64,000 bases of DNA from Planoprotostelium fungivorum. Its lineage: Eukaryota > Evosea > Variosea > Cavosteliida > Cavosteliaceae. Made by a program: the position numbers and the translations under genes. Positions 12,001-64,000 of this stretch are shown in pieces; position 1 is the stretch's first letter; each line of letters opens with the position of its first letter. The stretch spans positions 124,001 to 188,000 of the forward strand of contig MDYQ01000023.1 of the NCBI GenBank assembly GCA_003024175.1. Reading direction: 5' to 3'. Under the pieces are notes generated by a model. That model was not told the origin of the DNA and did not search any database. It worked only from the letters and a program-made list of their open reading frames with translations.

Positions 12001-13407
12001 TCACTCACCGTCAATTTGTAGCGGTGATACTTCCTAGCGATCATTTTCCTCCATATCTGAAAAGTCTTTCTTCGACGGAAATTTCTGAAGAAATCCAAGT
12101 AGATGATCTGATCGTACACGTTCTTCTCCATCACCCACTCCCTCAGTGGAATGAAGACTGTCTCTCTTCAAATCTCTCTTCTTTTTCAATGGAATACTCA
12201 CACATGGTGTTCTTTGTGAATCGTGATATACCTTCAACGCTCAATGTGAGATAGTCGTTATAGTCAACCTGCGTGGGAGCAATGACTTCGACATCGTAGA
12301 CACATTTGTTTGTCATCTTGCTATCCTTGATCTTCAAATAGATGAAATCGAATGATTTACTGCTCTGTACAGTTCCTGATGTGAGATGAGATGGAATCTT
12401 CGAAGAAATCTCATCGACTCACGGATGAAATCCTCCGGTCTCTCCCATCTCTTAGATAGCAATCGACTGATCGCCTCTACAACGGAGTCGAACTCGATGG
12501 TACTCTGTGGTTTGAATCTAAGAAGACGTCATCATCCGTCATCACCCGTCAACATTCACCTCGGTGAGGGTGTCGTAGCCATGTGGGCCGGGACCTTCTG
12601 TACGCTCACTTTGGGACTGGTTGTGGAGGCCACAACACTCGTTGTAGATGAAGGATTGGGACGAGACGTGGGTAACATGAGTGGATTAATAAGAACATTC
12701 GAGACGGCAGAGGAAGGTCTGACGGCTGATGCAGGTCGAGTGGGGGGAGAGATTCCAGGAAGAATTTTGGCGGGATCTTTGACAGGGGAAGGCTCCACCA
12801 CTTCGGATGTGGGTGTGAGGCTGGGGGATCCATCAATCACGACATTGTACAATGTCTCACCTCGTGATGGTAGAATAACCACCACCAGATTGATTCGGGG
12901 GGTGCAAGCTGATAGAAGATCTGTAACGTGTGAGAAGATTTCGGAAATTCTTCGCACCTTCTTCCACCGATGGGTCTCATGGCTCGATCTGTGAAAAGTG
13001 ATTAAAATTCATAGGGATAGGAAGACTTACACAGTCCAGTTAGGGCCATGTCAGCTTCGTAGGGAACTGGAGATGAATCAGATGAGGTGATCACCGTCGC
13101 GTGCGACTCACCCGGGGCAGATGATTTCTCCTCGATCTTTGGTACCTGTTTGACTGGCATGGCATCAGAATAGATCTTCCGTTTGAGATGACTCACAAAC
13201 ATCGAAAGTCTCTGGGGGTGGTCGTGGCTGTGTGATGTTTGAACCGTATAATCGCGATAATAATTTGGCTGAGTTATCTGTGGGTGTGAATATGTATCAT
13301 CAAGTGGACAATCATTCACCAGCCATTGTTTGCTCTCTCATGTTGGTCGATTTTTTTACAGCATTAGCTGTTCGACCTTCTAAAATGCGATTTGCATCTG
13401 CAGGCAT
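1..13407 (-). CDS. Axonemal dynein heavy chain (inner-arm, single-headed type), C-terminus cut by window edge
   Basis: Motor ATPase of the ciliary axoneme. The minus strand, read through many short introns, gives the dynein order. The N-terminal linker side carries a [16 protein letters not shown] segment near 12.1 kb, typical of DNAH1/3/7-like chains. AAA1 has Walker [11 protein letters not shown] near 7.53 kb and Walker [11 protein letters not shown] near 7.27 kb. AAA2 (GPAGCGKTT) lies near 6.53 kb, AAA3 (GPSGCGKT) near 5.29 kb, and AAA4 near 4.0-4.1 kb with its P-loop split by an intron (LVGLG/GMGKRT). The stalk follows as two coiled coils at about 3.0-3.2 and 2.15-2.46 kb around the microtubule-binding tip, then AAA5 and part of AAA6 ([26 protein letters not shown]). 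The frame is still open at position 1; about 250 residues should lie outside. The start is the first Met of an exon beginning [12 protein letters not shown], a choice that is not certain. The FNCSEGLDY and [13 protein letters not shown] signatures favour an axonemal over a cytoplasmic chain. Confidence 0.9.
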
Positions 13408-13435
13408 TAATTGGGTCAATACTGATGATCAGGTG

Positions 13436-14530
13436 TTACCCGTTGGTGGAGGGGACGCACTGTTTTGAAAAAGGTTGCCTCTCGTACCATCGAACATAGA
13501 AGACGGTCTCTTATTACGGTCCATGATGATGCATTGACGAGCTGCTGTGTTTCCAAGCTTTCGGAAGCAAAATTAGTTGCAACCGTCAGAACCAAAAATT
13601 GAATCATTTGATGACCCACACGATGCGATGGCATCAACGCTCTCTTGATATGATTATAGTAGGTGTCATCCTGAGAAATGGTACGCATCACTCGTTTCAT
13701 CTAATGACTCAAGTCTTCAACACTTTTATCTACATGTGAACTCATTGCGATAACATCACGTCCACGTCTTTCATGATGTATTTGCTCTGACTCGAATTCA
13801 TGAACAACAATGTACCATTGGGTAACAGATTCTGCACGACAACAGCGATCTCGTCCACCTTGGATTGCAACTGTGTGAATCAGCTCACAGGATAAACGCG
13901 TATGTGTGTAAGATCCTCACATCAGAAACCTTTGATAGTACATCGATCTTCTTGTACCGATCTCTGAGAACTTTCGTGATGCTTTGGAGTGCTCTTCGTG
14001 CGACGAGGATATTTTCGGCAGAGTGGCACACCAAAGTGAACGCAACGCTGAGTGGATCAGGAAAGTAGAAACCAGCATGTAACTCACTCGGGAGAAACTT
14101 GTTTCCATACGACGATCTTCTTCTCCTGTTCTTCGTCGTATTCTCCCTCTCGTAACAGTGCCTCTAATTGGTCCTGATCCGTATTACAAGACGCATCGTA
14201 GGCGAAAGTCCCTTCTTCCAATAGATCTGTGGCCCTCTTTCTCGTACGTTGCTGATTCATTCGCGGGTCGTCATTAGAGCGAGTCTCTCTGATTAATCGA
14301 TCTAGTGGGGGTATATCCTGATGATAGGACGTCCTCCATTTGTAATCCCGTTGAACTTGAGCTGCGACACTACTCAGCCAAACCGAAGGGGGTCGGTTTG
14401 CATCTGAATCAGAGGATTGTTTATGTCGTCCAGAGTTCAGGTCAGAGAACTGATGCGTCAGGTAGAGTTTGACGGTGCTCGGATGTGACTCCAATTGTTG
14501 CAAAGAATGGATGCAGAATGCGAACACCAT
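13436..14530 (-). CDS. Hypothetical protein, about 290 aa, family not recognised
   Basis: Four or more exons join into one open frame. The N-terminal exon (about 14.1-14.5 kb) is polar and charged, with RKRATDLLEEGTFAYDASCN and a Glu-rich helix ending VVWKQVSP. The second exon gives VAFTLVCHSAENILVARRAL, the third a helix with LQSKVDEIAVVVQNLLPNGT, and the last runs from MKRVMRTISQDD to a stop after CVPSTNG. Donors are GTGAG-like and acceptors end in CAG or TAG, as in the neighbours. I do not recognise a domain. It lies just upstream of the dynein start on the same strand, and I considered that it might be the dynein N-terminus, but the last exon reaches a stop before the dynein Met. It is 61 bp head-to-head with the Lys-rich gene, so the two may share a promoter. 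Confidence 0.5.
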
Positions 14531-14591: not shown

Positions 14592-17106
14592 ATGGGGAAA
14601 CGAAAAGGAAACGAAGAGGAGATCCTATTAGAGGATGACACACCTACCAGGGGGTCAGCTGGTTTCAGCGAGGAGATCGACTTGGGGGATGATGATATCG
14701 GACACAAATCGAAGAAGAGCGAGCCCAAAGTGAAGAAAGAGAAGAAGCACAAGAAGGACAACGGAAACTACGATGAAGAGATGGATCTTGAAGAGACATC
14801 AACATCAACCAAGAAGAGCAAGAAGGAGAAGAAGGACAATCAAGAAGAAATCGAGTTAGACGAGACGCCCGTACAGTCGAAGAATGATGAGGAACTCGAT
14901 TTGGATTCGGAGAAGAAGCCCGCCAAGAAGGAGAAGAAAGAGAAGAGGGAGAAGAAGGAAAAGAAACACAAGAGGGAGAAGAACGAGGAGGAGCTCGATC
15001 TCGATGATGCAACGGAGAACAAGAAGGACAAGAAGAGGAAGGACGTAGAGGAATCGAAGAGAGCCAAGAAGGAGACCAACGATGAAGAGCTCGATCTGGA
15101 TGACCAACCCAGCAGAGAGAACTCCAAGGAGAAGAAACAGAAGAAGGAACCCACAAAGGACAAGAATGAAGAAGAGTTGGATCTCGATGACGTGAGAGAG
15201 GAGAAGAAGGAGAAGAAAGAGAAGAAATCGAAGAAGGAGCAGAAGAGAGAAGAGAAGAACGATGAAGAACTCGACCTTGAAGATGAGACACCCAAACCAC
15301 GGAAGGTTAAGAAGGAGGAGAGGAACGAAGAGGAGCTAGACTTAGAAGCTGCCGTTGCTGAGCCACCAAAGGAGAGAAAGAAGGAGAAGAAGGAGAAGAA
15401 GGAGATCAAGAAGGAGAAGAATGAGGAAGAGCTCGATTTGGATGCTGTGGAGCCGGTCGAGAAGCCACAGAAGGAGAAGAAGGAGAAGAAGGAAGAGAAG
15501 AACGAGGAGGAGCTGGACTTGGAGGAAGTAGAAAAGCCACAGAAGAAGGAGAAGAAGGAGAAAAAGGAGAAGAAGAGAGAAAAGAAGGAAGAGAAGAACG
15601 AGGAGGAGCTGGATTTGGAGGAAGTAGAGAAGCCACAGAAGGAGAAGAAAGAGAAGAAGAGAGAAAGGAGAGAAGAGAAGAACGAGGAGGAGCTGGACTT
15701 AGAGGACACAGCCAAGCCACAGGAGAAGGAGAAGAAGGAGAAGAAAGAGAAGAAGGAGAAGAAGAGAGTGGAGAAGAACGAGGAGGAGCTCGATTTAGAC
15801 ATCACACAAGCAGCAGAGAAGCCACACAAGAGTGAGAAGAAGAAGGAGAAGAAGGAAGAGAAGAACGAGGAGGAGCTGGACTTAGAGGACACAGCCAAGC
15901 CACAGAAGCAGAAGAAAGACAAGAAGAAGGAAAAGAAGGAGAAGAAAGAGAAGAAAGAGAAGAAGGAGAAGAACGAGGAAGAGCTGGACTTGGAAGAGAC
16001 AGCGAAACCACAGAAGAAAGAGAAGGAAGAGAAGAAGAAGGAAGAGAAGAACGAGGAGGAGCTCGATTTAGACATCATACAGGAAACAGAGAAGCCACAC
16101 AAGAAGGAAGAGAAGAAGGAAGAGAAGAAAGAGAAGAAGGAGAAGAAGGAAGAGAAGAGACAGAAGCAATTTGTAGAGGACATGAACATCGAAGAAGAGA
16201 CGTCATCTCATGAGAAGAGAGGGGAGAAGAACACAGAAGAGATGGACATCGAGTCTTCTGTTCCATCTGTCACGGAAGAGTCTACACCCGCCAAGAAAGA
16301 GAAGAAAGAGAAGGTGAGATGATGCGTCATGATGAGATCAAGAGTTGAAACGATAGAAGGTACCTCCAACAGAAGAACGTCCAAAGAAAAAGGAGAAGAA
16401 GGAAAAGAAGGAGAAGAAAGACAAGAAGGAGAAGAGGAAGAAAGACAAGACACCGAAAGAGAAGAGCGACGGAGAACAAGCGAGAGAGAAGGCCGATCTC
16501 TACAACTCCATCATGAACGACATGGGCGAAGATGAAGACTCTGACGAGGCTTACGATCCCTCTCACGATGTAGAAGAGAGAGACGATGGCCCCAACTTGC
16601 TCGAAGTGGCACGAACGGCATCAAAGAAGAGCCTCCAAAAGTCACGCGATCAACCGAAACCGATGGTGAGGCATCACAGACATCTCATGGAGTTGACTCC
16701 ATCCAGAAGGAAGATCCACCGGCCACACCGATGAAGGAAGAAGAAGAACCGAAGGAGGTGGGTTTGAGATGCATCGCAGGCGACTGATTGTCATCTGCAG
16801 GCGACTGAGCCGACTCCGAAGAAGAAGGTTCGCCCCGTCGAGGAAGAAGCAGAAGAGACGTTCCGTGATTACTACCTCGAAGAGCTGTCTAGACACATCA
16901 ACTTGGAGAAGACGGTGGGCCTCTTTGACTCCACGTCCTCATGTTCATCCGTTCTTCGGGCGTGTTCTCATCTGATGTAGGGACTTCCAGGAAGGGCCGA
17001 GTTGGTGGTCGATGCGGTCACATTGGGTGCCAACTTCTTCTCGGTCGCCGACAAACTGTTCCTCCTCTCTTCGATCGGTTGGAAACCACAGTCACAGGAG
17101 AAATAA
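14592..17106 (+). CDS. Lys/Glu-rich repeat protein with a small conserved-looking C-terminal domain
   Basis: Exon 1 (14592-16313) is almost entirely a low-complexity polyampholyte. About twenty acidic modules of the NEEELDLE/NDEELDLD type are separated by KEKK-rich linkers that carry KPQKEKK. The exons after 16360 continue with more Lys-rich sequence, then an acidic stretch (NDMGEDEDSDEAYDP), and end in a folded-looking domain with FRDYYLEELSRHINLEKT and LVVDAVTLGANFFSVADK before a TAA at 17104-17106. That tail faintly recalls the C-terminal domain of the ribosome-assembly protein Rsa3, a similarity I cannot test here. Start chosen at the MGKRKGNEEE methionine, where biased composition begins, rather than 41 codons upstream. 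The protein is likely nuclear or nucleolar given the dense basic patches. The long antisense reading frame over it is a mirror of the GAA/AAG codon bias. Confidence 0.75.
14760..16180 (+). repeat. Degenerate intragenic repeat coding for alternating acidic and Lys-rich modules
   Basis: Purine-rich array within exon 1 of the Lys-rich gene. Each unit is roughly 60-100 nt: a GAGAAGAACGAGGAGGAGCT-like core encoding EKNEEEL, followed by D-L-D/E and a variable AAG/GAG-rich spacer. Several units between 15.5 and 16.0 kb are nearly identical at DNA level, which points to recent unit duplication, while the earlier units are more diverged. Confidence 0.8.
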
Positions 17107-17415
17107 AGAGGGAGGACACATTGGAAGACAATCGAGGCCTGTGGAAACGAGCGAAATTTGATTGAGGACTTTCGTGTGGAGTCGGCTGGAATCTGCGAAA
17201 TGTACCGATGCGAATGTGTGTTAACGCAGATGATCTACATTAGTAAACGTGTCAGCATTTCTCTACAACATTCGCTGCATCGTCACACAAAGCTTTCCAT
17301 CTTCATCAGCAAGTAGATATTTGGGCAACCTGAGTGAGAGAAGGGTAGCCAGCAGCTGAACACTAAACACAACCTCACGTTGCTTTCACTACGATTAAAA
17401 CACATTGTATAGAGA
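17107..17415. other. Intergenic region between Lys-rich gene and cullin
   Basis: About 310 bp with no convincing coding exon. It should hold the 3' end of the Lys-rich gene and the cullin promoter. I see an A/T-richer stretch just before the cullin ATG but no motif I would name. Confidence 0.4.
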
Positions 17416-20335
<2,920 letters not shown>

Positions 20336-20451
20336 GAAGGGGTGATAAAGATAAAGTGTATTCCCAATGCTTATTCTTCTCATTAATGTGATGTTGATGT
20401 GGATCGTGTTCGTGAATAGAAGACACAATATTTTTATAGAAGACATGTTGT

Positions 20452-21195
20452 TCAGCAGTGTCCATGCAGGAACTCTCCAGCCACGGGTCTCTTGGTAGAG
20501 AGGCTTAAGATGGAGATGCTGATGCATGTGGTGAGACACGAACACGATGAATGAGACAAACTCACACGTCTGGAATGCCTGGAAATCCGTAGCCAACAGT
20601 AACGCAGCTGAACACGGGCTTGGGATCTCTATTGAAACAGACAGAAGCCCACTGTCCTTGATGCAGAAAGGTTCCATCGTAGCAGTCGACTGCAATCATT
20701 TTGAGAATCGTATCCACATCACATCGATCGAAGATGGAGCTCACCATCTACAGATTTTCCATAAGCAGAGCAGGTCTTGTTCTCCGGCTTAGCTCCGTTC
20801 TTGACGGTGTAGAGAGGGGCGAGCTGAAGAGGCGTATTAGACTTCCACTCGTCACATTTTCCAGTGGCATCGCGGCGTGTTTGATTCGAAGAAGAGATGT
20901 TGGTGAACATGGAAGAGAAGTTGTTCAGATCCGTCTGTAGCACCGTCAGTGACGCATTCGACACATCGTTCTACATCTTACATCCTGCTCGATTCCCTTC
21001 TTGCCGTCTCTGATCAGAGTATGGTACATAAGAGAATTTGTGAACATCTGTGCTGAAGAGTACAACACACGGAACTGATAATCGTCACATACCATCTCCA
21101 CAATCATCGCTCACCGAAGAAGGTGCAGGTGGAGGAGCTGCACAAGACACGATGGCCACAAAGGCGAGGAGGCAGAAGAACTTGAATGTGTTCAT
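20452..21195 (-). CDS. Small secreted Cys-containing protein, unknown function
   Basis: Starts MNTFKFFCLLAFVAIVSCAA, a clear signal peptide with a likely cut after SCAA, followed by a Pro/Ser stretch. Five exons join in frame: MFTNSLMYHTLIRDGKK; a segment with NFSSMFTNISSSNQTRR and CDEWKSNTP; VDCYDGTFLHQGQWASVCF with CVTVGYGFPGIPD; and a tail that ends LHGHC. Six or so Cys and N-glycosylation sequons fit an extracellular role. No family recognised. It is convergent with the cullin, with 116 bp between stops. Confidence 0.7.
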
Positions 21196-36902: not shown

Positions 36903-37361
36903 GGGGAGTGCTGTCAATCGATCGTATAAATAAAGAAGAGAAGCAATCACATATCGTGGTTCTCATCTTGTGTCGTCGTGAGATGTGTGTCGATGTGATG
37001 TGCAGCGCGATGAACATTATCTCACTCCTCGAACTCTCCGGAACGCGTCGGTTTGGTGCTCCCCCGTCACTATTTCACAAAGATGATTCACGATGAATAA
37101 AGGAGAGGAACGATTCCGTCTATCGATCCTCTTTCAAGCATCTCTCAGCACCTTCTTGGCGTAATTGGTTTGAAGATCGATCTCTAGTGCTTCTTCCTTC
37201 TTCAGCTGGGAATTCTTCTCTCATTGAATCAACTTCCAACTGTGTACAGCTGCAAGAGTTGTACGCACGTATGCTTATGAAAATTCAATAATAATTTGTT
37301 CGGCAAAACCTTAGCGTTTGAAATTTCTCTCGCTTCTGAGAAAGGCATCTAAACCTACCCC
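36903..37361. other. Intergenic, about 460 bp
   Basis: No convincing exon on either strand. It contains the 3' end of the coiled-coil gene (AATAAA-like words near 36.93 and 37.10 kb) and the promoter side of the RING/TRAF gene. Confidence 0.4.
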
Positions 37362-38212
37362 ATGATCGCATCACCCAACGACGAATTCACGTATACGATA
37401 GACGTTCCGTCCCATCTTAGATGCCTCACATGCACTTTACCATTCGAAAATCCCATCACATTCGGATGCTGTGGTATGATGTGCTGTAGAAACTGCTCAG
37501 AGACCATTACACAATGCCCAGGATGCAAAATCGATTCGCCGAGGAGGACAGATATTGTTCCTCACTTCATTCAACAACAGCTGAACGATTTGACAATCCA
37601 ATGTTCGAAATGTTCGGAAGAAACGTGCAGGGGAAATTGGGAGGATCATCTCCTGGACTGTATAGAAGGTGAGTCTCCACTTGTTCGCGATGTGAATCTC
37701 TATAGAATGCCCCAATCTCTGTGGTAAAGCCCTCAGAACTGGTCTCACCACCCAGCACATACGCGAAGAATGTCCACATACCTATATCGAATGCATCATG
37801 AGCTCGTTCGGTTGTGGCTGGAAGGGACATCGAACACACCTCGCACAACACTTGGACACTTGTTCACGTCATCAGCTCAGAAGCCTCTTAGAGACACATC
37901 AGAAGGAGAGAGAGCAGTTTGAGAAGGAAAGGGGACGGTTTAAACGACAGAAGGAGAGGATGAAGAAAGAGAGAGAAGCTATAGCATGGGAGAGAGTTGA
38001 AATGTTGAATAATGAATCGGGTGAGTCGGTTTCAGGTTCCATCATTTCAATGTTGACCCATCACAGATTGGAAACTCAGATGCACAGAATTAGAAGATGA
38101 ACTCGGCAAGACGCGGCAACAGTTGACCGATTGGCAGGGGATGTACGAGAAACTCAGAGACCTCCACGATCGCACCACCTTCGATCAAGCCACCACCCAT
38201 CGTCACATCTGA
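37362..38212 (+). CDS. RING and TRAF-type zinc-finger protein with coiled coil
   Basis: A probable E3 ligase or adaptor. The N-terminal RING reads CLTCTLPFENPITFGCCG, then CCRNCSETITQCPGC. TRAF-type fingers follow: IQCSKCSEETCRGNWEDHLL then DC, next ECPNLCGKALRTGLTTQHI, and CGWKGHRTHLAQHLDTC. After these comes a strongly charged coiled coil (KEREQFEKERGRFKRQKERM). A final exon gives CTELEDELGKTRQQLTDWQG and ends THRHI. About 260 residues; there is no MATH/TRAF-C domain, so it is shorter than animal TRAFs, as is common among amoebal TRAF-like proteins. Three exons; tail-to-tail with the channel gene, 26 bp between stops. Confidence 0.82.
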
Positions 38213-38238
38213 TGCCAAATAAACTCTCACAAGACATT

Positions 38239-41200
38239 TTATTTCTTCGAGAGGAGGCTCATCATCTTCGCACTGTCGAAGCTCTTGATCTTTAGAGCTT
38301 GTGGACGAACTACGTCCCATCCGGGGTGCGTCTTTCTTGGCGCCGAGCTCTCCATCTTCTGGTCCATGCGGTCGATGTGCTTCTGCAACTTTGACATTCT
38401 CTCGTCCAGTGAAGCTCTGTAGGCGGCGGAACCTTCAGTCGACTGTCTAAAGACCTTCATGAGTGCCTCTAACTCTCTACTCAGTGCCACGAGCGACGTG
38501 TGAGCTGTTCAAAGTGAGAAATCGTGATTAATGAACGGCTCGTTGTAGATGGACGGGAATGGTCATCCTAACTCACTGTGAGAGTTGCTCTCTTGTTCCA
38601 TTTCGATGAGATCTTCCAGCTCCTTCTTCTCCTTCTGAAAGGGAGTGAAACCGAGCTCTTCAATCTCTTTGGCAGAATAGACGATAGTCTGTTGGCTGTG
38701 TGCAGCTCTACAATCCACATGAGATGATGACGATGATGATGGTGAACACGAGATGATGACGATGATGATGGTGAACATGATGATGGATGATGAGCATGAG
38801 GATGAGTCACCTGTTCTTCAAGAGGATGTCCTTCTTCATCTCTGCGTCACTCGTCGGCTGGTAGGCAGCGGGATTGTCGTCGATGTAGTGCATGATGGTG
38901 GCCACCACTTTTCGACTGAACTGATTGTTGGCAAATTTCCTAGAGAACCAATTTCCCTTCGAATTTTGTTCCTGTTCTCATCAACATCATCATCAACAAC
39001 AACATCATCATGTCACGAGGATATAGACACTCACCTGCTGAATGATGGTGTCGACGAACAACTCCCAACTCTTCGTGTCTTCTTGTGTTTCTGAATAATA
39101 TTCTGAAATTACGGCAATGAAAATATTCAAGAGAACCAATCCACCGAAACTCATGAACAAGATGAAGAGCACCGGTCCTGTTGAAATATGAATGGCTCGT
39201 TGTAGATGAAGTCACGTTGTACGCACCCACTACTGGACTGATGTGGAAGATCTCTTCTGTTTCGAACCCACCGAAGACGAAAGCAATGAGGGTGAGGCTG
39301 ATGAGGTCAGTGACGTCACGTGACGTAATACACCCACAAACTCTCCACGGGTGCCTTGAAAGCTCCCACTCTGCTGCCGAATGCGGCGTGGAAGGCAAAA
39401 GAGAAGGAGAGGATGACAACCACAAAGAGGAACACCAACATCTGTACGGCGGGTGACACGAGAGTCGTCAGAATGGCGTGGACCTGAATGTTCAAGTTGA
39501 ACGGGGTGGACATTTCTGAGAAATTTCTCCACCTTTTCTCCGAAAATGGGGAAGGTCTGCAGGGCGTTCAAGAGTTGGAGCCAGGCGAGTGTGAGAACGA
39601 GAGAAGAAAAGTCTTTGTAAAAGTTTGTGATGACAGCTAATGAGTGGAAATTGATGAATCCAGACGAGTTCGTCTGTACCTGTAGAGTGTCAGAGATGCA
39701 GTTCTTCCATCTACAACGAACCTCCTGCATGATATTGTAGGCCGAAAAGAATGCGAAGAGACGTAAGATGATCATGGAAGAGAAGAGCTGAAATTTCCGT
39801 GAGTTCTCCGAGAAAATTCCGCGAAAATTCACCAGAGAGAGAGCTAAGGCGTAAGCAGATATACTGTTTCCCTTCTTGAGCATCTTTGACACGTCATAGA
39901 CGGTCTGTACGATGATCATGATGTACACGATGATGTCTAAAAATAGATAAAAGTCCACGCGGAAAAACCTGAACGTGTCACGTGACCGGAAAAACGGATG
40001 AATTCTCACTGCATGAGATTGAGTATGACGAGATCGTGATCCACGATGATGGCACCGGAGGCCGTGAATTCTACAACGAGCCTGACCACCGAAAATAGAT
40101 CTAAATTCGGAGTGTAGATCGTGAAATCGAGGAAAATGACTCTCGTGGCCCCATCGATCCACTGTCCATCCTTTCCTGTTCAGAAATCATCTCGTGCAAC
40201 CATCCACCTCGAGTCGTTCTACAACGCCTTTCGCCTCTTCCTTGTTGGATGGGAAGTCTTGTATGAAACCACCGCCCGTGACGATCCATCCAGTCGTGTC
40301 ACTATATTTGAAATAACCATCGGACGTCTTCCAAGTGAAACTGTACAAAGTCAGATGATGACGTCATCACACGTCATACCTGTCGTCGGGGCCGTAACTC
40401 TGAGTGGACTCGTAGCGTAAGAAGCTGCGGTCTTGACATGAGTCACGTGTGATGATCCTCTCTGAAGTGTCACAGTGGTTCGTCGGCACCACGTTGACTC
40501 GAAATTGGGTCAGCCTGGGAAAACCAACGACCATGGTGTGGTTCAACGCCTGCGTGACGTCAGATGACGTCATCAACTTGACGAGACGGCGCGTTGTAGA
40601 TGGTCACCTGGGGGTCGTAGTATTGATCGAGCATGGGTCCCTTCAGCCATTCGTAAAAGGAATCGGGGGAGGATATGGCAGAGAAACTATTGTCTCCATC
40701 ACCAACATAAGCGTCTTTGATTGCACTGTTGAAGTAGAAGGTACTCGAACTACCCAACGTCGTATTCAAAAAGACATCTGTACGTCGTCATCATCGTGTC
40801 GACGTCGACATCTGGGTACTCACGCGTGGTGAGGAGTCCTAAAAATAGAATGAAGACACCGAATGTCTTCATGAATTTGAGAATCATGTACCTCTGTCTG
40901 TAAGCTTTGATGGAAGGTAGGCCGTTCGCTTGATGCAGCAGATCGGCCACATCGAGAAAATCTTCACGGTCTGATTTCTTCTCCGCTTTTCCCTTCGGTT
41001 TCGTCAGCTCTTCCTTTGCTTTCGTTCTGTTTTCATGACGTCAGTCGAGATGTCGTAGGTCGTGGAGGGTAATCACATGCGATCGAGTAACATGACGTAA
41101 GCCGATGTCTCCTTGTTGTCCTGTCTACAATCAGCCGTCGAATTCGCGGAGATTTCGTCGATTTTTACCTTGATGAGTAGATCTGGTTTTCTCTTTCCAT

Positions 41201-44200
41201 CGATGACGATGAGTCCAGATTTGATGGCACCCCTGTCGCTCAACGCGTAATGCATCGCTGTCTTCCCAGCGGAATCCTACACGTGTCATGACGTCATCAC
41301 ACGTCATCACGCGTCACACCTTGGCGTTGGGGTTGAGGTCTTCTTGTTGGGTTAAGAGGTCGACGATCTCCGTGTTGTTGTTGCGTACGGCGAGATGAAT
41401 GGGTGTCTGTCCCTTCTTATCGAAGCAGTTGACGACACAGCCTCTCTCGATCAGAGTCTTCACCGCTTCTAAATGTCCCCTGAGATGTCGTGAGTCCATC
41501 TTGAGATGTCATACGTGTCGATCTATAACGAGGATCACCTGTTGACGGACAGATGTAGAGGTGATTGACCATCTACATCGAGGATATTCAGATTGGCATT
41601 GTGCTTCAAAAGGAACAGCATGATCCTGTGCCTCGACTTCTCCGCAGCGTGATGCAACGGTGTCCTACCCTATTCATCATCAATCTACAACGATCACGTG
41701 ACTCCACGAGAGACGAACAGACCTTGGTATCCCTGTGGTTGATGCAGTTAGGGTCGTGTCGAACGAAAGCTTGAACTGTTTCCAGGGCGTCGTTTGCTGC
41801 GGCCAAACCGACCAACTCAGCTGAAATGGAAGAATAAGAGATTTTCGATGTGAGGAATTCGTTGAGGTACACGAAATTATTGGCGGCAACCTGGTCGTGT
41901 GAGACGGTGAAATTTCATCGACATTTCACCATCTCGGTGAGAAGCTGCTTCTCCTTGGGGTGTTGTATGGAGATGTCAGGTAGAGTTCCCATCACCGTCT
42001 TCAATAGCTGCCACCTGTCCATCTTGTAAAAAAAAAAAGGCAGGGAGAAGGGATCGAATTCGCGCACCTGGATAAGACGAGGGCAAAGTAGAGACAAGTC
42101 TCCCCGTTCGAATTGGCTTCATACCAACACTGTCTCGTTGCTTCAGAGTGGTTCATGTAATAATGGATGATGGGTATCTGTCCGTGGTGCGTGGCGACCT
42201 GAGAAGATGAGTGCCATCTACAACGTTGTAGATGCGTACCATGAGTAGAGTTCGATCGAGATAACCCCTCTCGAAGAGTCTCTGTGGATCCTGCTCCACC
42301 AAGTGCTGGAGGGAGGGTAACTGACCGTATCTGTGACGTCATCATTATGAATGATGACGTCATCACGAGATATTTACCGAACGGCCAGGAAAGTAGGGGT
42401 AGAATCTTGAATGGGCCACACTCGAATGCTCTGATCGTTACTTGCGGATACGATGGTCTGTATGATGTCACCTCACGTCATCTACAACGTTGTAGACGCA
42501 CCTCGTTGGAAATCAATATCTTGTTGATCCTCTTACTGTGTCCGGTGAACGTCAAGAAGGAACTGGAGTCCTTGATGTTCCATCCCTGCGTGACGTCGTC
42601 ACCACATCTACATCGTTGTAGATGGATCACCTTGATGGTACCATCTTCCGAACCAGAATAAATTCTTCCCTCCTTGTCGAGAGGATCTAAAGATAGACAC
42701 ATGACAGCGGCGTTGTGTCCTCTAAAGTGTCGACAATTGTCCGTGTCTTGTATGTCTTTCTTGTGAAACGATCCACCGCTCCTCTTCACCAACATCATCC
42801 TCTGCGGCTGTGGAGTCTGATGACGTCATCACACGTCATCACACGTCATCGTACCTCTCCCTTGGAAGATTTCAACTTGTTGAGGTCCAATTTGTTGAGG
42901 CTGATTGTAGAGTCGTAAGACCCTGCGAACAGATTGCTCTTGAAGTATTGTAGACATTGGACGACCTTGCTGTGTGCCCGGATGACGTGGAGACAGATTC
43001 CGGACTCCGGGTTCCAAATTCGAATGGTCTTATCGTCCGCACAGCTGAAGACCAATTTGGCATCGTCTGCCACCTGAAATTCCGTCGACATCTCGCGGAA
43101 ATTTGGTGGAGATTTCACCTTCACGTCGTTGATCTTGGCGTTGTGACCTACCATGACGTGGAGAGATTCACCCCTTGGAGCGCTCCACACGATGACCCTC
43201 TTGTCACTCGAGCCACTGATGAGTTTGGCACTACCTAAGGCGGCGAAACATGTAACCTTCTCTTTGTGCCCGTTCATCACCTGAACCATCATCAACATCG
43301 TGAGCATCAGATCATGACGGTGATCATATCATGAATGTGATCATAGATCATGACGGTGATCATATCATGAAGATGATCATAGATCATGACGGTGATCATA
43401 TCATGAAGGTGATCATAGATCATGACGGTGATCATATCATGAAGGTGATCGTGATCACATCATCGTGATCGATCGTGATGACGATGATCCGATCGTCATC
43501 ACCTGAATCATCTTTCCAGATTGTAGATTCCACTTCCTGACCGTATGGTCCGCCGATCCCGAGAACAAGAACTGATCTTGAAACAGACACAGACAAGTGA
43601 CACCCTTCGTGTGCCCCTTCAGGGTCAGCATAGACGTGCCGTCCTCCACGTTCCACTTGATGATGGTTCGATCAGAAGAGCCGGTGAAGAGGAAGCCTCC
43701 GTCCTGTATGGCCATGCTTGTGATGTCACCCGACTGTCCCTTGAAGACTTGTAGACCCGTTCCGTTCGTCAGAGACCAGCTGCGAGCGGTACCGTCATTC
43801 GAGATGGAGATGAGGTGGTCGCCGGAGACCATCACGTTGGTGACGAAACCTGATGACGTCATCGCACGTCACGGACGTACCGTACGTACCCGTGTGGCCC
43901 TTTAGGACGACGTCTTGCAGGGCGGTTGCCTTGGCGACGCTTTCCGTCCAGATACGCATGGTTCCCAGGGAGCCTCCAGAGATCAATACGCTTCCCTTGT
44001 GATCGGCCTGATACATTTAAATCATTTCAATCGTATTTTGCGTCTTGAAATCGACTCGTTGTATATGGATTACCTTGAGTGAGACCACGCAGGAAGTGTG
44101 TCCGATGAAGCTCTGAGGTGGTTCAGAAATTTGAACGAAAATTCGTCATCTCACTTGTTGCATTCTGCCCGTCTTCAGATCGAATCGGTAGATGTTCTTT

Positions 44201-46327
44201 CCATTGCTCGTGTAGACAGATTCATTTCCCACCACCTATCACACGATCAATCGACCATCTACAACGATGTAATTGGATGCACCTGCAACAGATGCACCGT
44301 GGAAGATTCATCGTTACTGGGGGCTTCGATCCTGTGAAGGAGGGAGAGAGAATTGATGTCCCAAATCGAGTAGGTACCGTCCTTTGATGACGTCATCACA
44401 CGTCATCGATCACGTGACTCACCTCGCAGGTGACGTAGATGCTCTCCCTCTTGACTTTGAGTGTGACGATGGGTGACGTGTGGGCCCTCACAGACCGGAT
44501 GATCTTTCCACTCGCCGCTTCAATGAGGACGACAACTCCACTCAGTGTACCGTAGATGACCTACGTTAAATTATATTTTACTCACGATAATGATGATCAT
44601 GATGATGATGATCATGATGATGGTGATCACCGTCATGATGGTGATCATGATCAGTGACACCAACGATCGTGTTCGAATGTCAAGATATTCATGATAAGAC
44701 CCACCTTATCACGTTTGACACGGAAAGTAGATATTGAGTTCTGCAGAACCGACTCATCACCCGCCGTGATGACCGACTTGATGACACTCGTCTCATCGGG
44801 TGCCGTCAGATTCCACTTCCTCAATGTTTCATCCTCTACAACGCGTCAGACGTACCCGTACGTACCTTACTCACCCGAAAACGAGTAGAAATGCTCCTCT
44901 CCCCACAGCTGCAGAGACGTAACTGGATCGGAGTGTATGTGAAATTTCGATATGACCAGTCCAGTCTTCACGTTCCATCTGCAGATCTTCCCATCGTAAG
45001 CTCCAGTCAACAGAGTACCATCAGCTAATGTCTTAATGCAAGAGACTCCCTTGACGTGAGGTGTCAGGCATTGGATCTGCTTTCCGCTCTGAAATTTCGA
45101 TGAGATTTCGATGCGTAAGGGTACGTACCGTTACGTCCCAGAGTCGCACGGAGGTATCGAGAGAGCCGGAGTAGAGGATGTTGTTTCTGATCTTGACGAC
45201 TGTGATGCCGGCGGTGTGACCGATGAAACGACAGGCTGGTCTGGCAGATGATCCCTGATTCATTTAGACATTGATGATGAATGATGGATGATGGATGATG
45301 ATGATGATGATATACTCACGGCCGCCTTCCAGCATCTGATCTCGTTCTCTTCGCTGCTGGCTGAATAGACGAAACCATTGTCGTACTTCAACAGGTGAAC
45401 GGCATTGTTGTGACCCTCTAATACTTTTAAACACAGGCCGTACTATCTCTTCTTCAGACGAATCGTGAAAATCTCCTCTCTTCACCTTCTGCTCGAACTT
45501 CTTTAATTCCTTTGGAAACTGTTTGAAAGTTTAATGTTTGTGATGGGGATGATGCAAGATGGGATGTCACCTCGATCTTTCTCATCAGACTGAGTTCGAT
45601 CTGTGTCTGGCTCGACTTCTTCTTCGCCTGTTGATACCGTGATCTGTCGAACGTCAACACGATGTGATGTCGAAATGGTATCACTTCAAGATCATCTCTT
45701 TCAAACCGACAGAGAGGGAGATATCCTTGTGCTTCTTCATTTTCTTGAAGCCCTTCCATTCGACCTCGGGATGTTGGTTGATAATGGCACACCAGTGGTG
45801 ACAAGCCCTCTTACAACGTGCAATGGAGGGACTTTCTAGATGTAGAAATATGGCAACCCATAAGGGCTGTGGGAGGTCTGGTCTAGAAGGATGGTAGATC
45901 TGTAAGAATCATTATGTGACGATCATCGAGAAGGAACGGTACCTCAGCTGGATGAGGAGTCTGATCGTTTTCGATTTTTTTGTTCTCTGTGAATAAGATC
46001 AGCTTCTAGATACGATTATGTCTGATACACTATGCAATCACCTGAGCCGATACTTTGCGATTTTCGTGGAGTGACCATCGGGGAGACCATGACCATTTCC
46101 CCCTTCTAATGTAAAATGTCAGCTCGGATGCAACATCTTTCACAATTCACTTGAGAGGGTGGAGGTGGGGGTGTCGGAATATTGTTATTCTCTTCCACTG
46201 TCTGTGTTACTGTGGAATCATTCACAGCATCAATGGCAGCCAATCCATCTGTCTCCTGTTTCGCAATCGAAACCTCAGGATCTTTCCCTTCTACATCCAC
46301 CGGTGGAGTAGCTGAAGGGTGATCCAT
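38239..46327 (-). CDS. F-box / WD40 / ankyrin / polycystin (PKD2-type TRP channel) fusion protein
   Basis: Spliced minus-strand exons stay in one frame for about 2,000 residues. Order: a Pro-rich start (MDHPSATPPVDVEGK); an F-box (LPQPLWVAIFLHLESPSIAR with CKRACHHW); a linker helix; about 16 WD40 units from 45.45 to 42.38 kb (e.g. ILYSGSLDTSVRLWD, LFSGSADHTVRKWN, IVSASNDQSIRVW); and ankyrin repeats from 42.3 to 41.1 kb (RTPLHHAAEK, QSPLHLSVN, QTPIHLAVRNN, KTAMHYAL). A basic linker and TM1 (FMKTFGVFILFLGLLTT) lead to the polycystin TOP domain (VGFPRLTQFRVNVV, GYFKYSDTTGWIVTGGGF) and S2-S6 (DIIVYIMIIVQTVYDVSK; S6 VLFILFMSFGGLVLLNIFIA). The tail is a coiled coil ending SLLSKK. The WD40-ANK junction is a phase-matched 47-nt intron at 42331-42377. 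The ANK-channel junction is also in frame. More than 30 introns, many with palindromes. Two adjacent genes remain possible but no stop or start was found between them. Confidence 0.75.
42215..42234. repeat. Perfect 20-bp palindrome in an intron
   Basis: CATCTACAACGTTGTAGATG, a self-complementary joining of the two orientations of the recurring intron word. Related palindromes lie at 42481-42496 (TCTACAACGTTGTAGA), 42605-42624 (one mismatch type) and 60983-61000 in other introns. Confidence 0.9.
42335..42361. repeat. Perfect 12-bp inverted repeat inside a 47-nt intron
   Basis: Arms GACGTCATCATT and AATGATGACGTC separated by 3 nt. The hairpin fills most of the intron that joins the WD40 and ankyrin parts of the fusion gene. 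Confidence 0.9.
43309..43452. repeat. Intronic minisatellite, four copies of a 36-bp unit
   Basis: Each unit starts AGATCATGACGGTGATCATA and ends with a TGATCAT; period exactly 36 bp at 43309, 43345, 43381 and 43417. The unit is itself rich in the ATGATCAT palindrome. It lies in an intron between two WD40 exons of the fusion gene. Confidence 0.9.
44577..44660. repeat. Intronic ATGATGATCATGATG-rich tract
   Basis: A short imperfect array of GATGATCATGATG words, self-complementary around TGATCA, inside an intron of the fusion gene. Similar tracts occur near 49.35-49.44 kb in the PDAT gene. Confidence 0.7.
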
Positions 46328-47050
46328 TGAGAAGCAGATCGGTTACTGTGAGCGATTTTTTCTTCGCAAAGATCGAGCTTCCACCAAAAACACAGGGAGA
46401 ATAGTATTTCCTAGTAGATGTGCGTGTTTCTTCGTTATTGCTGCGAACAAGAACGGAACAGGAGCAGATATAGGGTCGTGAATACAAGCAAGCGGAGGGG
46501 AGAATTGGTGTTGTGTGATGAGCATGTTTCTATGGAAGGGAAAACGACACACAATCAAGAAGATTAACACGTTACAACGATTCAGGGCGATCCTCTCATC
46601 GACACGTTTGAGGCTGTGAGTGATACGAAAATCAGATCAAATCGACCCATACTGTCTACAAACATTCAAGGTCTAACCTGATGTGAGCCGTTAGGGGCAG
46701 TATGCCCGGTCACGTGACCCGCAAATCCTCCTCATAACATTTTAGCGTTGTTAACGTGGAGATCGCGGTAAGCGAGATTGAAAGATCTTGCCTCTCCTCT
46801 TCTGGTATCTTTACGACATGGTCGTATTATCAACTGGCACCCACCATCTGGCCTCACCCCCAGCATCTGGCCTCTCTCAACACCATCACATCATTTATTT
46901 TTGGATCAAGAGGACGTGAACGTGTCCAACCACTCCGACGACCCCTTCAAACGACAGAGATCACAAAGTAGCTCAGGCTCTCCTCTTTAGAGGATGATCA
47001 CATTCTGTTGTCTCTGATCGGGCGACGTTTGTGACGGAACTGCTACCATC
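46328..47050. other. Region upstream of the fusion gene; 5' part of the next gene not resolved
   Basis: The first few hundred bases upstream of the fusion gene ATG show no exon I trust. On the plus strand, 46.91-46.99 kb has a coding-like stretch (NVSNHSDDPFKRQRSQSSSG) that may be a 5' exon of the following hypothetical gene, but I could not find a phase-correct junction. Confidence 0.35.
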
Positions 47051-52470: not shown

Positions 52471-54085
52471 ATGACCTCCTCTATGAATTCTTTCTATTTG
52501 AGAACACTCTTCATTCTGGCCACCGCATTATCGGTCAGCTGCCAATGCTCGACGACGACCTCTTCGCATGGAGATGATATAGCCAGAGGTGGGGATGATG
52601 GAGAAGGATAATTGTATTGAATGTTTATAGCTGTCGGAGCCCTCTCCTCATGTGATCCCCGCTCTGTTACCATAGACTCGCCTCTGATATCGACCACGAC
52701 GTCCATTGATGGAAATGGACGCTCTCTCATCCTCAACAGCTCTACAAGCTCCAATGGGTTTCAGAACTACTTTACATTCACAAACTTTGGAGAGGTGAGC
52801 TCGATTATGAATCTTTAATCACATGAGGATTTACATTCTCAGTTGTATATACAAGACCTCTCCTTCAGCGGCGCTGCGTTCTACCGCGTGAACTCCCTCC
52901 GTTTGAACAACATCACAACGAACAACACCCCTCTATCATTTGGCACCATCTCTGATGTGGCAGTCTCGAACAGCTACATCTACACTATGAGCCTATACAC
53001 TGGCTCCGGAAATTGTAAGCCCCCCTCTTCGTCTCATCTTCTGATGCAAATCACAGGCACATTGTCCATCTCCAACAGCACCATCTTAGACCATGTGACC
53101 ACCTTCGGCTGCACCACCCTCGTCTCTGGTTCCCTCTTCAACAGCACTGGTATCAACACCGGCCTCCAATCGAATCTCAATGTCACCATCGTGGACTCCA
53201 CCTTCTCTCAGTTTGTGGACAGCGCCATCATCACATCATCCAGCGCCTTCATCCAAAACTCTTTCTTCGACAGCAACATTGGTACCAATGGTGGCCATGT
53301 TCAAGCATACGCTGACGTCACCGTCTACAACTCGACCTTTTTTGGAGGGTTAGCTACGGCGAGGGGAGGAGCTATTTATAGCAAGAACGGTACCGTGTAC
53401 GTCAGTGGCTCCGTCTTCACTTCGAACACGGCCAACTCGATCCAAATGTTTGCGACCGGAGGCTCAGCCTCACCCATAGGCTCTGGAGGTGCTATCTTTA
53501 GCGGCAAGCAGGTCGTTGTAGACAGCAGTTCCTTCTCCATGAACGCTGGTATCTACGGTGGTGCCATACGTGAGACCGACCGAGAAATTTCGAAGAAAAC
53601 TCATCTTCAACAGATTCACAAGAAATTTCAGTGAACGGTGTCAACTTCTTGAACAACCACGCCGACGGTTTCGGAGGCTGCCTGCACTCCCTGACAGGCC
53701 CCCTCTACGTCTACAACTCGACATTCACCAACTCAACCATCTACCCTCTCAACAACGGCGGTGCCATCTTCTTGCTCGGTGAGAACTTTCTCGGAAAAAT
53801 CTTCCCGCCCTCTAACCTCCCCCAGGCTCTTCGGAAAGTTCCATCGAAAGTTCCACATTCAACTCGAACGGAGGAGGACAGTCTGGAGCCCTCTACGTAA
53901 GGGGAAGTAACACGACAATCACACTGTCGGACGTACACTTTTACAACAACTACGTGTGTGACACGTGTGACTCCAGAGCGGCCACGTGGTACATCGAGGC
54001 GGGAAATCTCAACTTGATCAACACCACGGTAGTACCTTCGTTCAGTACGACATCACTTGGAAACGTACAGGGCTACGCTGTATAG
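52471..54085 (+). CDS. Secreted right-handed beta-helix repeat protein
   Basis: A signal peptide is visible: MTSSMNSFYLRTLFILATAL then SVSCQC. The mature protein is a chain of short beta-helix rungs rich in Asn, Ser, Thr and Gly (SIDGNGRSLILNSSTSS, NVTIVDSTFSQFVDSAII, ATARGGAIYSKNGTVYVSGS, FLNNHADGFGGCLHSLTGPL, GGAIFLL, SNGGGQSGALYVRGSNTTIT), with GGAI/GGCLH turns like those of Pmp-type and pectate-lyase-like folds. Many N-glycosylation sequons are present. It ends VQGYAV at 54083-54085. Six or so exons; the intron near 53.58 kb carries two GAAATTTC words. There are no catalytic lyase motifs I recognise, so adhesion or a matrix role is possible. Confidence 0.75.
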
Positions 54086-60196: not shown

Positions 60197-60598
60197 ATGC
60201 CGGAGACGAACAACTATTTATGCTTCGATAAAGATTGAACCTTTAGATGATCTAAATCTGTGTAAAAGACATCTGTCGTCTCGGCATGCATGGTCCGTGA
60301 TTGTCAGAGTTGGAGTGAGACGAGCATTCTATCGACTACTGATCGAACACAGGAGAATGAATGTATGTGGTGCGATCTTCTCTTTTATGTCTTATTCAAC
60401 TTGTTGTATTTCATGTACAGCGCCCACTGCGACGTGCCAACGATGTTCTTCTGCCATCTTCTGTACAAAAGATTCTTCATGGATGTATTTGTAGACTGAA
60501 GTCCTTGACTGTATTTCCATCAGAATCTCTCTCATCATCGACATCATCATACGATGCATCATCATACGGTCAAGATGATGGAGGATCATGAAAGATGA
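60197..60598. other. Convergent intergenic region
   Basis: About 400 bp. No supported exon; 60.54-60.60 kb has a CATCATCATACGATG-type short repeat before the kinase stop. Confidence 0.4.
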
Positions 60599-62464
60599 TC
60601 ACCTCTCCGTCCACCCTTCGTTGACATAAGCGAGGAAGTTTCTCGCGGCAGACTTGTCCGTCTCTTCTAATTGATTGAAGGCCGTCTCTATTTGCGTCAG
60701 GGCTGCCTTCGTTCCTTCACTCGAGCTGGGAGCTAAATTCTTCACGGCCGGCTGCACGACATCCTTCAGTAGCGTTCGTTTCTACAACGAGTCAGAATGT
60801 ATCGTGACGTCTCGTATGATATCATCACCTCGGTGACGATGTCGAAATCCCAGCCATCGTCGTCACTGCTGATGGAACGTCAGAAACTTTAAAATGAAAT
60901 AAAATGATTCATTTCACCTGGGTGCCGATTTCCCGTATTTCTTCTGGTACACCCCTGCGGAAACCTGGGTATATTTAAATCGATCTACAACGATGTAGAT
61001 CTACCTTTCGTGGATTTTTTGTTCGATATTCTTTATATCGGTTGATGAGAGATCCCAGGGCTTCCGTTGGCTCAGCGTTGACGATGAATTCGTGTTCTAA
61101 TAACTCCATGGCCGACAGACGCTGGAATTTCAATGGATGGCTCGATGAAATTTCACTCACTTTTCTGGGTTCTTTCGTGAGACACTTGGATACAAAGTCT
61201 TTGAACACTGGGGTGAAGCTTCCCTCTAATTTGGGTGGTTCTCTCTGTGTGATCTGTTGCATCGCTGTGATGATGTCACGACTCATGATGATGTAACAAC
61301 TCATGATGATGTAACAACTCATGATGATGTAACAACTCATGATGATGTCGCCGGGATGATCGTCATCGACTCACCCTTCATGGCAGGAAATTTCGCCAGA
61401 GGTGGTTGCCCTTTCGCCATCTCTGTCTCTCCCGTCAGCATCTCTCACATCGTTTCATTCGAATGCGACCCACCGATACAAGTGATACCGAGCGACCAGA
61501 TGTCAGCCTTCGTGTCAGTTCCACTCTCTTTGATCACTTCAGGAGCCATCCTTCTTCAGGTGAGTATGCATAAAAAAATACGCCGTGGTCGGGGATCGAT
61601 GTGTGGGCTCACCAGTAGGGAGTGCCCACGACTGTATAGCGTTTGATGTTGTTGACCAGCTGAGTGCTCACACCGAAATCGGCCAACTTGATGGAACCGT
61701 TTTCGCCCAATAAGATGTTGGCGGCTGAATGAGGTGAGCTAATGATGAGAATCAATAGAAACTTGGATTTTCATCACCTTTGATGTCTCTGTGAATCCTC
61801 TCGGATCTATGCAAGAAGTTGAGACCGTGAAGGACCTCGCGAGAGATGATGGCGATCTGTTGTTCGTTGAGTAGCCCCGCTTGTAGCTGCATGAGGTTAG
61901 AGATGGAGGAGATGGATGATGTCTGGACCTGTTCTTGCATGGAACCACCGCTCATAAATTCCATGACGATGTGGAGTCTGTCCTCGTCGAGGAAACTTTC
62001 GTAATATTCGACACAGAAAGGACTTCGACAGTCAACCATGGTACCGATTTCCATCTGTTCTCAGGTAAGTGTTAGCGGAGGTGAAGGCTTTCAAATAGAG
62101 GTAGAATGAACGTGAAATGCATAATAAAAAGGAGAAGATTGAAGATTAACCTGTATGTCACTGATTTCATCGTCGGAGGCGTCTAAATCTATAATCTTGA
62201 TGGCCACGACCTTCTTCAGCTTTTCGGACCGACTACATAATCAGTTTCATTCGATGCCGCTTAAAATCACTCACGCCGTAAAAACTTCACCTGCAACAAG
62301 ATCAGTTTCTAATTCGAAATAGATGTTGCCTTCTAACAAGGTAGATGCAGGTGAAACAAGGAGATCGCCATCGACTACGACTTACCAAAAGCGCCCTCGC
62401 CAATCTTTTCTAACAGAGTATAATCGCCAACGACATAGATGCCCTCTTCATTCTGGGCAGACAT
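60599..62464 (-). CDS. STE20-family serine/threonine kinase (GCK/severin-kinase type)
   Basis: Start MSAQNEEGIYVVGDYTLLEK with Gly-rich loop IGEGAFG; VAIKIIDLDASDDEISDIQ holds the ATP-binding Lys. Then follow VDCRSPFCVEYYESFLDEDR, LHIVMEFMSGGSMQEQ, FLHRSERIHRDIKAANILL (catalytic HRDIKAAN), KLADFGVSTQLVNNIKRYTV (DFG), GTPYWMAPEVIKESGTDTKA (GTPYWMAPE, the STE20 signature) and DIWSLGITCI. After the kinase fold come FKDFVSKCLTKEP and ELLEHEFIVNAEP, then a C-terminal part with SLINRYKEYRTKNPRK and a helical tail TQIETAFNQLEETDKSAARN that ends NEGWTER. The tail layout recalls GCK-II/III kinases such as MST, YSK and Dictyostelium severin kinase; which subgroup is uncertain. Introns contain a minisatellite and a perfect palindrome. 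Confidence 0.9.
61266..61350. repeat. Intronic minisatellite, 18-bp unit, about 4.5 copies
   Basis: Unit CATGATGATGTAACAACT at 61284, 61302 and 61320 with diverged partial copies on both sides, in an intron of the kinase gene. Confidence 0.9.
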
Positions 62465-62543
62465 CAGAGATGCCCCATCCGGTCCGCACCTCTATGGCTC
62501 GTTCTCGTTGTAGATAGTATGTTTTCCATTCATTTCTATTTTT

Positions 62544-64000
62544 TATCTCCTCCTAACATGAGCCAGCGTCAACTGCATCTGATTGGTGAGGGCAGCCTCC
62601 AATGCCAGTGTTCTCTTCTCTTCTTCCTCTCTCATCCTCCTGACCTCTTTATCTCTCGACTCCGCCTGTCATAATCCATCAGTCAAACGACAAGCTTCCA
62701 AGTGTACTCACCAGCTCTTCCGCAATCTTATACTTGTTCACCATGAGATCCAACTCCCTTCTGGCGTCGATGTCGCTCTGTTTCGATTTGGCCAGACTGG
62801 ACAATAGTGTATCCCTCTCCGCCTTCAGGTTATCCAATTCAGACCTGTGTCGAGCAGCCAAGATCTCAGCCTCTTGTCTGGCCTCCCTCTCCCTCTTCGA
62901 GTCCATCTCGTGATTTCTTACGGTATTTTCTTTCCACCTGCACCCGTCAGAGGTGCGTCATCTGAATACATCACCTGGTGAGTTCTTCAATCTCTCTGGC
63001 CTGCTTCTCTGTGACTTTACGGAGCTCTTCTCGATTCGCCTCGACGATGACGTAACGCTCTTCTATCTGTCTGAAGTGCCTCTTCTCGTCCTCTCTTGCG
63101 CTTGCTTCTACTTCTTGTAGTTTCTTCAAGAGAGACGTCTTCAAGTTCATCATCTCTGTGGCCTTACCCTCTATGTCCTTCTCATGTCAGCTTGTGGATG
63201 ATCTAAATATCTCACCTCTTCTGCTAAGGTTCTCGCCTTTTCAGCTAATCTCACTTTCTCCTCCATAGAATAGATCTTCTGTTGATGCACTTGTGCTTGT
63301 TCTCGCAGCTGAGCTTCACACTCCCTCTGTATTCGACTGATGTCCGCTTCTTGTCGCTTCTTGTTCTCCTGGTACAGATTGAGAACATACGGTTCTGATA
63401 TCTCACCTCTTCGTTACGTTTCCTTTCATCCTTCTCGATCTGTACTCGTTCTTCCGCAGCTATCTCGCATGAGAGGATGAATGAATGACAGGCTCACCTT
63501 TTAGTCTTTTCCTCTCCGTCTCCAATAGAGACTGATACTTGCTGACCTCTAACAATGCCTCATCGGTTCTTCTTTGTTGGTCACGCAGCTGAGACTCCAA
63601 TTGAACGATCTGTGATTGCTTATCGGACAACGACCGTTGAAATTCGGCAGTAGCAGACACCAGATGCTACGTCATGAAATGTCAGTGAGAACTCTCCGAC
63701 ATCTCGCTCACGCTTCGTTCGTTATTGATGTCCTCTTGCAGCCTCTTCACTACCATCGACGTGTCTTCTTTCGCTCTGCGTAGGGAATCACTCAACTCTG
63801 CAATCTTGCTCTCTCCTCCCTCTCGTAATCTCGCTTCCTCGGACAACTTGGCGGTCAGTTCGGCCTGCCTTCTCTTCTCTTCCAATAAAGTCCGATCCAT
63901 GCTGCTGATTTGATCCCTGACGATTTCCTCTTGGGCCTTCTGTGATGAGACGGTGTACGATGAAACGACAGCCTTCACCTTCTGATCGACGATAGATTGC
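62544..64000 (-). CDS. Long coiled-coil protein, C-terminal part only (runs off right edge)
   Basis: Exons with continuous heptads: ISSMDRTLLEEKRRQAELTA, RRAKEDTSMVVKRLQEDINN, QIVQLESQLRDQQRRTDEAL, VTEKQAREIEELTR, DSKREREARQEAEILAARHR, LNDLKAERDTLL-like and VRRMREEEEKRTLALEAALT, ending LTLAHVRRR with a TAA at 62544-62546. Introns of 40-60 nt fall between. There is no globular domain inside the window, and the N-terminus is outside. It could be a centrosomal, ciliary-rootlet, Golgin or myosin-tail-like protein. It is separate from the kinase: its stop lies 79 bp before the kinase ATG on the same strand. Confidence 0.75.

Follow-up and report, generated by a model that had tools for sequence, protein, structure and literature searches.

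The window analysed here is a 64,000-nucleotide stretch of Planoprotostelium fungivorum DNA (GenBank assembly GCA_003024175.1, contig MDYQ01000023.1, positions 124,001 to 188,000 of the forward strand). It is eukaryotic in character, with very short introns and many of them per gene. On its minus strand lies a gene, called the channel gene below, that is predicted to encode an F-box, a WD40 array, ankyrin repeats and a PKD2-type channel in one continuous polypeptide; this prediction is well supported. The spliced model contains 5,763 coding bases with no internal stops, and all 42 introns are of the GT-AG type (median length 45 nt, range 37-222 nt). The matches to the F-box, WD40, Ank, Polycystin_dom, PKD_channel and Ion_trans families each exceeded the curated Pfam cut-off of the family concerned. 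An earlier note, made from the letters of this stretch, had followed one frame through minus-strand exons from F-box to WD40 units (about 16), ankyrin repeats and a PKD2-type channel with a TOP domain. That frame is open throughout the 43-exon model, and the Pfam matches and by-eye counts agree with the parts named. The features of the gene, in positions of the window, are as follows.

38239-46327, minus strand: whole gene model, 43 exons, 1,920 amino acids (gene finder with manual edits)
45943-46327, minus strand: exons 1-3, residues 1-95, uncertain N-terminus (open and in phase, no coding-score support)
45738-45875, minus strand: F-box, residues 104-149, wholly within exon 4 (Pfam match at residues 103-138; weak by other tests)
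42401-45421, minus strand: WD40 array, residues 210-910, 16 units by eye (Pfam, hand count)
42331-42377, minus strand: intron 21, the WD40/ankyrin join, 47 nt, with two copies of the octamer TGACGTCA (GT-AG, break cost, motif test)
41079-42400, minus strand: ankyrin repeats, residues 911-1223, about nine by eye, the first straddling intron 21 (Pfam, motif test)
41027-41076, minus strand: intron 29, the ankyrin/channel join, 50 nt, with one copy of TGACGTCA (GT-AG, break cost)
40825-40893, minus strand: S1 helix region, residues 1269-1291 (hydropathy)
40033-40685, minus strand: polycystin (TOP) domain, residues 1323-1495 (Pfam)
39089-39943, minus strand: PKD channel S2-S6, residues 1512-1721 (Pfam, solved structures)
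39261-39281, minus strand: pore stretch FVFGGFE, residues 1674-1680 (alignment to PKD2L1)
38344-38496, minus strand: C-terminal heptad region, residues 1836-1886, a possible coiled coil (heptad score)
38238-38243, minus strand: AATAAA overlapping the stop codon (sole copy on the minus strand within 38000-46700)
42334-42362, 40555-40572, 41036 and 43854: example sites of TGACGTCA

The continuity of the gene was examined in a leave-gene-out run, in which the channel gene was excluded from training and the other gene models descended from the same seeded start. The finder still called a single gene from 45740 to 38239 with 37 exons, and both join introns were used. Forcing a break cost 19.5 at the WD40/ankyrin join and 25.4 at the ankyrin/channel join (median of the 42 introns, 19.65); at the boundary between a TAF5-like and an ATP-synthase-like gene, which the same finder had fused in error, the cost was 5.0-8.0. 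Controls for the break cost comprised 132 introns in five genes. In the dynein control gene, five of 57 introns cost 0.0, all of them close to the ends of that gene model. The TAF5-like half of the wrongly fused pair matched TFIID_NTD2 (6e-42), and the ATP-synthase-like half gave a Pfam match of 22.9 bits on one open reading frame (ORF), under the cut-off of 29.5, and no match among solved structures at 1e-30.

The two joins had already been placed in the earlier note, as a 47-nt intron at 42331-42377 with phase kept and as an in-frame passage near 41.05-41.08 kb. Both hold: the first intron is GT-AG and V-R-Y is read across it, and the second, at 41076-41027, is likewise GT-AG with LLDRITKA read across. 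At intron 21, the end of the last WD40 exon (DSTPTFLAV) and the start of the next exon (RYGQLPSLQHLVE) together fit an ankyrin repeat. When scored by BLOSUM62 against an ankyrin consensus, the nine residues before the join gave 15, a score reached by none of 210 other predicted exon ends, by none of 708 9-mers from the WD40 part and by 43 of 200,000 exon-peptide shuffles. The Ank_2 score over the first repeats rose from 21.8 bits unjoined to 26.7 bits joined, the fragment alone still lying just below the cut-off of 27.3; isolated pieces of the first repeat gave no Pfam matches.

Separate genes would also lack early start codons. If the ankyrin part stood alone, its first in-frame ATG would come only at the last codon of exon 22, and the channel part has no in-frame ATG before S1, an argument that holds unless an unseen upstream exon supplies the start codon. 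No AATAAA was found between the parts on the minus strand from 46700 to 38000, the sole copy lying at the 3' end of the model. The channel gene has 11 copies of TGACGTCA, every one of them intronic, with introns accounting for 28.8 per cent of the gene's length; the octamer is present in both join introns. This count is not fully independent of the choice of introns, because the seed introns of the gene finder were picked by eye.

Several observations weigh against a single gene of this extent. Introns 1-3 had a forced-break cost of 0.0 in the leave-gene-out run, so that the first 95 residues are uncertain. Only 27 of the 43 exons of the final model were recovered identically in that run, with 16 missed and 10 of its own. 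Pieces around intron 29 gave no ankyrin match and no motif crossing this second join, which limits the crossing-motif argument to intron 21. Exon 21 read without splicing ends FLAVR-stop. The channel part (515 amino acids) had one pattern match in the viral_contigs collection and 16 in genome_contigs, none of them a relative. Eukaryotes are outside the intended scope of both collections, and these searches are therefore silent on conservation. The stop after FLAVR, the lack of a motif at intron 29 and the wrong fusion of the TAF5-like and ATP-synthase-like genes would all fit a false join, in which separate adjacent genes, two or three in number (for F-box/WD40, ankyrin and channel), were taken as one. 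Such a false join is nevertheless very improbable, given the ankyrin motif spanning intron 21, the high break costs at both joins, the absence of an early ATG and of AATAAA between the parts, and the TGACGTCA copies in both join introns.

The model itself was reached in stages of unequal independence. An early gene-finder run predicted 793 introns, an over-call, and was discarded. The main run was seeded with 14 ORF pieces, four of them from the channel gene, and with ten introns chosen by eye. All ten came from the channel gene, many with the TGACGTCA-type motif, and since intron 21 was among them the main run is circular for that join. In the final model 38 of 42 gene-finder exons were retained; exons 1, 2, 36, 38 and 39 were placed by hand, the choice being guided by phase and channel homology. 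The frame stays open even if introns 17, 19, 28, 35 and 36 are retained, neither join intron being among these, and exact splicing and protein length are consequently uncertain; the length may deviate by a few dozen residues. Position 38239 is the last base of the stop codon.

The channel part is of the polycystin type. The polycystin domain (PF20519) scored 82.3 bits against a cut-off of 23.6 (4.5e-23), with the TOP domain after S1, and PKD_channel (PF08016) scored 70.6 bits against 22.4 (1.7e-19), with an Ion_trans match at 1.1e-6. The closest solved structure was PKD2L1 (8.9e-41), aligned from S1 to the end of S6. All 20 solved sequences matching the channel part at E up to 0.001 belong to the polycystin family, and no group I transient receptor potential (TRP) transmembrane domain was matched among solved structures at that threshold. 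Hydropathy peaks were found at S1, S2, S3, S5, the pore and S6, with two more where the TOP domain ends; S4 lay under the threshold. The pore stretch FVFGGFE aligns with IILGDFD of PKD2L1, so that the filter reads F-G-G in place of L-G-D. An L-G-D filter is typical of PKD2 and PKD2L1 and is not required for the polycystin family. The alignment has Q and N in place of two S4 lysines of PKD2L1 (awiKifK). In the light of what is generally known of polycystins, the changes at both sites suggest altered selectivity and little voltage sensing. Of two TOP-domain cysteines, 1374 and 1386, the second aligned with a PKD2L1 cysteine and the first was four columns off. The best 28-residue heptad score at the C-terminus was matched by five of 1000 shuffles, and no EF-hand was matched by Pfam in the spliced protein.

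The ankyrin part matched Ank_2 at 3e-35, and among its 376 ankyrin-type matches were NOMPC (1.7e-70) and TRPA1 (1e-40). The WD40 family (PF00400) matched at 5.4e-69 over 11 scored stretches, where 16 units were counted by eye. An F-box followed by a WD40 array in one frame is a feature of FBXW receptors, and it is present here. A search of solved structures with residues 1-400 matched FBXW7 (6.1e-37) and beta-TrCP (5.1e-27), both among the best 60 of the 365 sequences obtained at E up to 1e-8.

The F-box is the weakest element of the protein. It lies in exon 4, one open exon that also contains the linker to the WD40 array, and it is assigned to the gene by frame, by Pfam and by the usual arrangement of such domains. 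As regards an F-box and a WD40 array in one frame, the forced-break costs at introns 4, 5 and 6 were 10.1, 29.1 and 29.1. F-box-like (PF12937) matched residues 103-138 at 28.5 bits against a cut-off of 24.3, a margin of 4.2 bits.

A polycystin-type channel that also serves as a membrane-anchored substrate receptor of an SKP1-CUL1-F-box (SCF) ubiquitin ligase is the reading put forward here, tentatively and with somewhat less than even confidence. The pore would be a polycystin-2-type cation channel with a TOP domain and S1-S6, presumably a tetramer. Its long cytosolic N-terminus would consist of the ankyrin solenoid, the long WD40 array, probably folded as two propellers, and outermost the F-box. 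The F-box would bind SKP1-CUL1, the propellers would grip either a client or the tail of the channel itself, with the ankyrin repeats as the connection between these arms and the pore. Both termini of TRP channels are generally cytosolic; with a tetramer, four F-box/WD40 arms would therefore lie beneath the pore. Several receptor arms under one channel could give local control over the turnover of the channel or of docked partners, and ion flux or mechanical state might be coupled to protein turnover, as the earlier note had conceived. A further step, in which substrate access to four clustered arms follows the state of the channel and a membrane stimulus leads to protein destruction, is conceivable and rather unlikely. 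A CUL1-type cullin is encoded in the same window (14592-20661, plus strand; Cullin-1 4.6e-247, ahead of Cullin-2 at 1.7e-156, with a neddylation (Nedd8) domain), and so an SCF scaffold exists in the organism, which shows no more than the presence of a partner. In animals, TAZ promotes polycystin-2 degradation via the SCF beta-TrCP ligase, according to a title cited in PMC4393133; channel and ligase activities thus already meet elsewhere, in trans.

A number of results speak against a working SCF receptor. F-box PF00646 scored 20.7 bits against a cut-off of 20.5, only 0.2 bits over. A single-sequence search of solved structures with the F-box region alone found no F-box chains at E up to 1. The predicted fold of exon 4 was of low confidence, with a mean predicted local distance difference test (pLDDT) score of 50.4 and helices at positions 11-22 and 26-42 of the piece. 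The gene called in the leave-gene-out run begins past the F-box, at a point within exon 4. The top WD40 matches among solved structures were designed propellers, so that the likeness to FBXW7 may be partly generic WD40 likeness. Proteins with an F-box or WD40 repeats have roles outside SCF as well. A rival reading is a real fusion that is a scaffold without ligase activity, its F-box vestigial or of a non-SCF kind. The WD40 and ankyrin parts would then serve only as a tether of the channel to the cytoskeleton, to signalling partners or to the axoneme, or as a means of transmitting force to the pore. The barely detected F-box, unseen among solved structures, the resemblance of the ankyrin part to NOMPC and TRPA1 among many ankyrin proteins, and the axonemal-type dynein gene in the window, which hints at cilia, are consistent with this scaffold; an F-box over two Pfam cut-offs and ahead of a WD40 array, the order of an SCF receptor, is not what it would lead one to expect. 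We regard it as doubtful, yet a real possibility. Improbable, in turn, is a role in self-turnover only, where the F-box/WD40 arm would recruit SCF against the channel itself and thereby set its abundance; nothing else would be a substrate, and gating would play no part. It draws on the same F-box/WD40 domain evidence and on animal polycystin-2, reported in the source portions available as a target of SCF beta-TrCP and of endoplasmic-reticulum-associated degradation; a 16-unit WD40 array with ankyrin repeats would be large for such a purpose.

The membrane-anchored SCF receptor proposed here can be set beside several known systems. Polycystin-2 and PKD2L1 (TRPP, group II TRP) share the TOP domain, the S2-S6 PKD channel and the S6 region, and differ in the F-box, WD40 and ankyrin N-terminus found here, in the F-G-G filter and in the Q and N of S4. 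Dictyostelium polycystin-2, as far as the available part of its description goes, is similar in its C-terminal heptads and in the lack of an EF-hand match (PMC11012017). The SCF proteins FBXW7 and beta-TrCP likewise have an F-box ahead of a WD40 array. FBXW proteins have 7-8 WD40 units, whereas 16 were counted by eye in the channel gene, which adds ankyrin repeats and a membrane channel and in which SKP1 binding is putative. In the group I channels TRPA1, TRPN/NOMPC, TRPC and TRPV, ankyrin repeats also lie N-terminal of S1; the membrane part here, however, is of the polycystin type with a TOP domain. The accessible text of PMC6744473 gives Chlamydomonas crTRP1 four ankyrin repeats and a TRPC-like domain composition. 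TRPM channels also carry a second, non-channel module, the NUDT9 homology domain in the part of PMC13143021 available; their fused domain is C-terminal and enzyme-like, and the module here is N-terminal and a putative ligase adaptor.

PKD2 is placed in group II and TRPA, TRPV, TRPC and TRPN in group I in the available part of PMC9242649, from which it follows that the ankyrin arm and the polycystin pore stem from different TRP groups. Such a group I-type arm on a group II pore bears on the origin of TRP layouts. In the open-licence literature covered (titles and starts of abstracts), no polycystin with F-box or WD40 parts is described, which is consistent with the earlier remark that no protein of this layout was known; the individual parts are known, and their combination was found to be undescribed there. 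Should a transcript confirm the model, a channel and a ubiquitin-ligase adaptor, reported to meet in trans in animals, would here form one polypeptide, and a single molecule would then allow the connection of polycystin signalling with protein turnover to be tested.

The introns of the window have features of their own. The window contains 24 copies of the palindromic octamer TGACGTCA, about ten times the expected 2.48, and 21 of the 24 are in predicted introns; the 13 copies outside the channel gene are divided between predicted introns (10) and predicted exons (3). Introns of the channel gene also have CTACAACG/CGTTGTAG words in common, and their longest inverted repeats exceed those of shuffled introns (mean arm 6.0 versus 4.4). 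The octamer and the intron repeats may represent introner-like elements or may help introns to fold for splicing. Intron 16, the longest of the gene (222 nt, 43281-43502, minus strand), contains near-tandem ATGATCAC/TCATGAT-like units.

Among the neighbouring genes, a TRAF-type zinc finger gene (37353-38100, plus strand; zf-TRAF 5.1e-7) is convergent with the channel gene, from which it is separated by 138 bases; upstream of the zinc finger is a RING-like match below threshold (0.011). The cullin gene was joined by the finder to a long charged head with repeated NEEELDL-like blocks and Lys/Glu runs; head and cullin may be separate genes. A dynein heavy chain lies at 219-14260 (minus strand), and its piece at 6114-6776 was closest to axonemal DNAH6 (1.1e-49; cytoplasmic dynein 4.4e-44), a match from which the organism may be ciliated. 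A predicted protein at 53044-54085 (plus strand) consists of repeated Gly/Ser/Asn-rich units and had no Pfam match at 0.001. At 60385-63900 (minus strand), the gene finder placed a long coiled-coil-like head and a protein kinase domain (Pkinase 1.4e-29) in one gene model.

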